Source: Bacillota bacterium (GTDB lineage: Bacteria; Sysuimicrobiota; Sysuimicrobiia; Sysuimicrobiales; Segetimicrobiaceae). Taken from it: a DNA stretch of 64,000 nucleotides. Of the stretch, positions 141 through 690 are shown piece by piece (position 1 is the first letter of the stretch; every line of letters starts with the position of its first letter). A program made the position numbers and the translations under genes. The stretch spans positions 1-64,000 of the forward strand of contig JAJPJJ010000075.1 in NCBI GenBank assembly GCA_021324295.1, in the 5' to 3' direction. The notes beneath the pieces are model-generated. The model saw only the letters and a program-made list of their open reading frames with translations, was not told the DNA's origin and made no database searches.

Positions 141-602
141 TCATTCCTCGGTGATCTCCCAGGCATGCGAGATCGCCACGCAGCCCTTGAGCGTCTGGGC
201 GACGGGGCAGCCCCGCTCGAACACCGCGAGCGCTCGCTCCGCCTCCGGGCGCTTGCCGCGGGGGATCGTCAGGTGGTACCTGACGCGAATCTGCGTCACC
301 CGCATCACACGGTCCGGGGCCTCGATGATCCCCTCGGCCTCGGTCCAGAGCTTATCGGGGTGGCTCGGGATCCCGCGCGCCTCCAGCGCGCCCGCGAGGG
401 TCCCGGTGAGTCAGCCCGCCGCCGCGCCGACGAGGTGGTCGAGCGTGCTCGGGAGCTCCTCGTCGGGCTCCATCCCGTAGAACGCCTTGATCCCCGCGTT
501 CACCCCGTAGCGGACCGGCTCGGCGAAGCCCGCGAGATACGCGCGCCGGTTGGGACGCTTCTCCTGGTAGACCCGTACGCGGGCGACGTGCACGATGTCC
601 AC
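141..602 (-). CDS. OsmC-family peroxide/thiol-redox protein, probable selenoprotein (in-frame TGA read as Sec64)
   Basis: OsmC/Ohr-family proteins reduce organic hydroperoxides or related electrophiles with a cysteine pair in the cytoplasm. Read through one TGA, the frame gives 153 residues, a normal family length. The GTG start at 602 has a GGGGAGG ribosome site 6 bases upstream. Residues 1-63 end in LDHLVGAAAG, codon 64 is TGA (411-413), and the protein continues LTGTLAGALEARGI to a TGA stop at 141. The family normally has Cys at residue 64, directly before LTGTLA. The second family cysteine region is intact (ERGCPVAQTL, Cys132), with a further Cys141. No other stop or frameshift occurs, and the downstream part is fully conserved in character, which argues against decay. 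A stem-loop at 367-404 fits a bacterial SECIS. OsmC-like selenoproteins are known from metagenomic surveys. Alternatives are a sequencing error or a recent nonsense mutation. No selenocysteine machinery lies in this window. Confidence 0.85.
367..404 (-). promoter_or_regulatory. Candidate bacterial SECIS element within the OsmC-family gene
   Basis: Six bases after the in-frame TGA (411-413), the mRNA can fold as GGGA paired with UCCC, then CCC with GGG, a one-sided internal bulge, and a perfect 6-bp GCGCGC/GCGCGC helix closed by the 5-base loop UGGAG (381-385). The GG of the apical loop lies about 27 bases after the TGA. Bacterial SECIS elements typically have a small apical loop with a G near its start, 16-37 bases from the UGA. 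The hairpin is coding sequence, as expected in bacteria. High GC makes chance hairpins common, so the position and loop matter more than the stem strength. Confidence 0.72.
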
Positions 603-690
603 GCATCACCTCCCCGACGCTCCGGCGGCCCGCCGCCCGGCCTCGGCCCCCCCGGCATCGCACGGCGAGCGGGGAGGCCGGCTCCGGCGC

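Follow-up and report, generated by a model that had tools for sequence, protein, structure and literature searches.

An OsmC-family gene with an in-frame TGA

The window, that is, the whole 64 kb stretch of DNA that was analysed, derives from a metagenome assembly, and its host is an uncultured soil bacterium. A gene on the minus strand (positions 141–602) runs from a GTG start at 602–600 to a TGA terminator at 143–141. A strong Shine-Dalgarno sequence, GGAGGTGAT, can be read directly upstream of the start (605–613, minus strand), and the neighbouring genes encode an enoyl-CoA hydratase and an S1 protein. Ahead of its terminator the frame contains only one in-frame TGA, at 413–411 on the minus strand (codon 64), followed by LTGTLAGALEARG. 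Translation with table 11 stops after codon 63, so standard annotation truncates the gene. Reading through the TGA gives a complete protein of 153 residues. A sequence-only reading of this locus had made both points and had proposed a probable selenoprotein of the OsmC family.

We scanned codon usage around TGA triplets across the 64 kb window. The TGA at 413–411 was the only one with a strong coding signal on both sides (log-odds per codon 0.68 and 0.45, versus 0.21 and 0.26 for the runner-up).

The read-through protein belongs to the OsmC family and has the OsmC fold. It matched PF02566 at 48.5 bits (gathering cut-off 27.5, E = 1.2e-12), and Pfam OsmC was matched by 25/25 members of the clade of selenocysteine (Sec)-containing relatives described below (Sec-OsmC clade). 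The predicted structure had a mean pLDDT of 80.7 and placed the residue at codon 64 (U64) in a central helix spanning residues 53–75. OsmC and Ohr structures were the best fold matches of the model, with E. coli OsmC at the top (Foldseek E = 1.4e-7 to 1qwi). When aligned with the OsmC structures 1ukk and 1qwi, U64 fell on the first conserved Cys, as the sequence-only reading had claimed, and C132 (207–209, minus strand) on the second. The stretch around C132, ERGCPVAQTL, was likewise found undamaged in the translation. The same genome contains three further OsmC-family genes, all with Cys (G000, contigs C98, C125 and C39; L057–L059), making the Sec protein one of four OsmC paralogues.

Conservation of the TGA in two phyla

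An orthologue was present in 21 of the 43 genomes of Candidatus Sysuimicrobiota, the window's genome included (51–87% identity). Every one of the 21 carried a single TGA, always at codon 64, and no second stop or frameshift; the earlier suggestion to look at related genomes thus returned an identical TGA in all close relatives and no decay. An exact-pattern scan of contigs gave at least 10 GenBank MAG loci that agree on the TGA, partly from the same genomes as the phylum set. Full-length relatives (E below 1e-20) were also found in 30 of 396 genomes of the phylum around an Acidobacteria MAG (locus L054). All 30 of those checked had TGA at codon 64, with coding intact on both sides.

A wider profile search separated two groups. 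All full-length matches at E below 1e-44 had the TGA, and matches at E above 1e-11 were ordinary OsmC proteins without it, with Cys at the U64 position in those read. A remnant in genome G074 (L106, G074:C48:55790-55999) scored between both groups; it has lost its 5' part and kept the TGA and a hairpin-like stretch. Genome G125 has two Sec-OsmC copies (C298 and C440), with TGA in both. In a tree of 25 Sec proteins and eight Cys OsmCs, the Sec set lay on one side of a branch (95/91), and the Cys branches were very long. Because the TGA is kept in every full-length relative and is the sole one in the window with a strong two-sided coding signal, its position at codon 64 is not due to chance.

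These data bear on the possibility that the gene really has a Cys codon (TGC or TGT) at this place, misread as TGA in sequencing or assembly. A single wrong base in this metagenome assembly would suffice for such an error, and OsmC relatives have Cys at position 64. However, about 50 genomes from two phyla and unrelated studies share this TGA, and a covarying hairpin follows it. The independent genomes refute the error, to which we assign a negligible probability.

Selection downstream of the TGA

Comparison with orthologues gave dN/dS values of mostly about 0.05–0.3 both before and after the TGA, and somewhat higher values in the most distant pairs. Purifying selection past the TGA implies that the downstream part is translated and needed. 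In alignment A3, U64, C132 and R19 (546–548, minus strand) were invariant; C132 and further residues downstream of the TGA stayed unchanged over 32–87% identity. The earlier statement that the sequence is undamaged on both sides of the TGA therefore holds, given the coding signal on both sides and the low downstream dN/dS for most orthologues.

Under table 11 the frame closes at codon 63, as it would if the gene were a pseudogene broken by an early stop or if its product were a truncated protein of 63 residues. Such a gene is hard to reconcile with purifying selection about as strong downstream as upstream, with the invariance of C132 and other downstream residues, and with orthologues free of a second stop or frameshift. 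We consider either form of this explanation extremely unlikely.

A covarying hairpin downstream of the TGA

A SECIS hairpin with a stem of 7–8 pairs lies at 374–392 on the minus strand, at nucleotides 22–40 counted from the T of the UGA, with a spacing of 26 nt from the UGA. Its apical loop is GGA (382–384, minus strand); among 46 distinct sequences the loop was GGA in 40, GGC in 5 and AGC in 1. The region showed synonymous constraint: codons 71–77 had an observed/expected synonymous variation of 0.30, the minimum among all 7-codon windows of the gene.

Compensatory changes were also observed. In the same 46 sequences, pair 27/35 was G-C in 32 and A-U in 11, and pair 26/36 was C-G in 41 and U-A in 4. 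Codon 72 was GCA only alongside GTG at codon 75 (11/11; Fisher P about 2e-9, shared ancestry ignored), so that a silent change at codon 72 is tied to an amino-acid change at codon 75 through base pairing. In the true register 87% of cells were paired, versus 19–61% with one arm slid by 1–3 nt, and the number of compensatory cells was 15 versus 0–5.

Published rules for bacterial SECIS elements specify a loop of 3–9 nt, a stem of 4–16 bp, a G in the first two loop positions, a distance of 16–37 nt from the UGA, an MFE of at most −7.5 kcal/mol and the loop pattern N1-G[G/U]-N-N2 (PMC13188914). The Sec-OsmC hairpin satisfies these rules, including the loop pattern. It was weaker or shifted in a small number of sequences (L044, L080 and L081). 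The window's single sequence, folded and compared with shuffled versions of itself, had z = −0.09; for one GC-rich sequence such folding is uninformative, and the comparative data carry the signal. Rfam SECIS_1 had no match in the genome, and as the controls were also unmatched, this says nothing about the hairpin.

Selenocysteine machinery in the host genome

The genome of the window comprises 4.02 Mb in 129 contigs (96% complete, 4.7% contaminated). In GenBank its close relatives are MAGs under the name Terrabacteria group bacterium ANGP1, which NCBI taxonomy places in Candidatus Segetimicrobium, Candidatus Sysuimicrobiota (earlier name CSP1-3). A search for Sec genes, as the sequence-only reading had advised, found the full set of tRNA-Sec, SelA, SelB and SelD. 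The tRNA-Sec is on contig C106 (72.6 bits) and has the anticodon UCA (ARAGORN). SelA and SelB occur as one pair on C106 and another on C42.

The selA on C106 (G000:C106:124414-125774, L061) is split into two overlapping frames with their junction in a C-rich stretch, and the split may be either a true lesion or an artefact of assembly. The SelA on C42, in the same bin, is intact. This second selA-selB pair (G000:C42:40034-43073, L062) encodes a SelA 47–51% identical to the C106 SelA pieces, and a TnpB-type transposase-like frame lies at the end of C42. The pair could come from horizontal transfer or bin contamination. The SelD on C90 (G000:C90:137275-138198, L063) is probably a selenoprotein too: close to its N-terminus it has a TGA (CAG-U-ASK), and a strong hairpin lies after that TGA.

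We also compared SelB presence in genomes with and without the Sec-OsmC gene. SelB was found in 18/21 versus 13/22 genomes in Sysuimicrobiota, and in 26/30 versus 13/15 in the Acidobacteria-centred sample. SelB presence does not separate gene-bearing from gene-free genomes well. The genomes of seven relatives had no SelB above the cut-off (3 Sysuimicrobiota, 4 Acidobacteria-centred); the three from Sysuimicrobiota are incomplete or fragmented assemblies.

UGA is reassigned in some bacteria, and insertion of Cys at UGA64 is possible in principle. Either a suppressor tRNA or a code change across the genome could thus place a different residue, Trp or Cys, at UGA. In this gene UGA is not reassigned, because its own terminator is TGA; several orthologues likewise end in TGA. 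Moreover, the window has one place in 64 kb with a strong coding signal past a TGA, the genome encodes tRNA-Sec, SelA, SelB and SelD, and the SECIS is conserved. We regard reading of UGA as Trp or Cys as very unlikely.

Together with Cys in the homologues, the Sec machinery, the conserved TGA and the covarying SECIS hairpin bear out the proposed selenoprotein. The sequence evidence indicates that 141–602 is almost certainly the gene for a full-length, 153-residue OsmC-family selenoprotein with Sec at codon 64. UGA64 would be decoded as Sec when SelB delivers Sec-tRNA(Sec) under the direction of the SECIS hairpin 26 nt downstream within the coding sequence, and the final UGA (143–141) would act as terminator. 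The gene offers a clean example of a SECIS hairpin that covaries inside a coding sequence.

Relation to known OsmC-like proteins

OsmC-like selenoproteins were reported in 2005 from a Sargasso Sea survey, with the motif UxxT (PMC1088965), and again in 2008 from the GOS survey (PMC2398784). They also appear in a 2026 review. This kind of protein is therefore already known, a point that goes beyond the sequence-only reading. The Sargasso/GOS protein, grouped here with NCBIfam NF041052 (OsmC_like_Se, OsmC-related (seleno)protein), likewise has an OsmC/PF02566 domain, carries Sec in place of the first catalytic Cys, and has a bacterial SECIS after the UGA. However, its listed motif is UxxT, whereas that of the Sec-OsmC clade is U[LM]xGT (UxxG). 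The NF041052 cut-off is 95 bits; the window protein reached 15.6 bits, and individual scans of ten clade members gave at most 28.7.

Cys-based relatives were similarly distant. E. coli and Thermus OsmC (1qwi, 1nye and 1ukk) have the fold and both redox positions in common with Sec-OsmC, but carry Cys instead of Sec and are about 17–20% identical in structural alignment; Sec-OsmC was under the TIGR03562 cut-off (29.2 versus 85.8 bits). Ohr has in common the fold family, a reactive residue in the central helix, a second Cys and an Arg numbered 19. Ohr is Cys-based, however, and TIGR03561 picked up only a few clade members, at low scores of no more than about 15 bits (cut-off 88.85). The Sec-OsmC clade is a separate subfamily outside the curated models tested.

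We found no Cys version of the subfamily in two phyla, plasmids, viral contigs and the PDB, and no close relative of Sec-OsmC among the plasmids or viral contigs searched. The subfamily is apparently Sec-only, the search for Cys members having covered two phyla in depth. Our literature search returned no work naming this OsmC subfamily and none on Sec in CSP1-3/Sysuimicrobiota; the gene adds a selenoprotein subfamily to a phylum for which the literature searched held no selenocysteine papers. Because standard gene calling cuts every member at codon 63, databases probably contain further members that go unrecognised. Very tentatively, the clade could be an undescribed obligate-Sec OsmC subfamily without a Cys member, common to Sysuimicrobiota and Acidobacteria-related bacteria, whose chemistry needs selenium and which is not a faster Cys OsmC. 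We consider this stronger proposal rather doubtful.

Proposed catalytic role

In Ohr, the reactive Cys (Cp) lies in the central helix and acts with Arg19, Glu51 (Xylella numbering) and a second Cys (PMC5962072). By analogy, U64 is probably the peroxidatic residue, and would form a selenenyl-sulfide with C132 as the resolving residue while reducing organic hydroperoxides or some comparable substrate of thiol-redox chemistry. R19 shares its sequence number with the catalytic Arg19 of Xylella Ohr; we infer from this residue number, and not from structural superposition, that it may be the counterpart of the catalytic Arg. As regards a counterpart of the catalytic Glu51, E48 was near-invariant within Sysuimicrobiota and not in the wider set, and the predicted model is unreliable at residues 49–51.

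Instead of a hydroperoxidase, the Sec protein could be an enzyme of the OsmC fold that acts on a different substrate, in thiol-redox or other chemistry. We think this unlikely, yet worth weighing: with the models for Ohr, OsmC and the SACOL1771 peroxiredoxin the clade scored far under each cut-off, many proteins with the OsmC fold have yet to be characterised, and the neighbouring enoyl-CoA hydratase and S1 protein give no hint of peroxide stress. In favour of a hydroperoxidase, U64, C132 and R19 are all invariant, as expected for Ohr/OsmC chemistry (PMC5962072). With either substrate, the protein would provide a natural Sec enzyme for comparison with Cys OsmC and Ohr.
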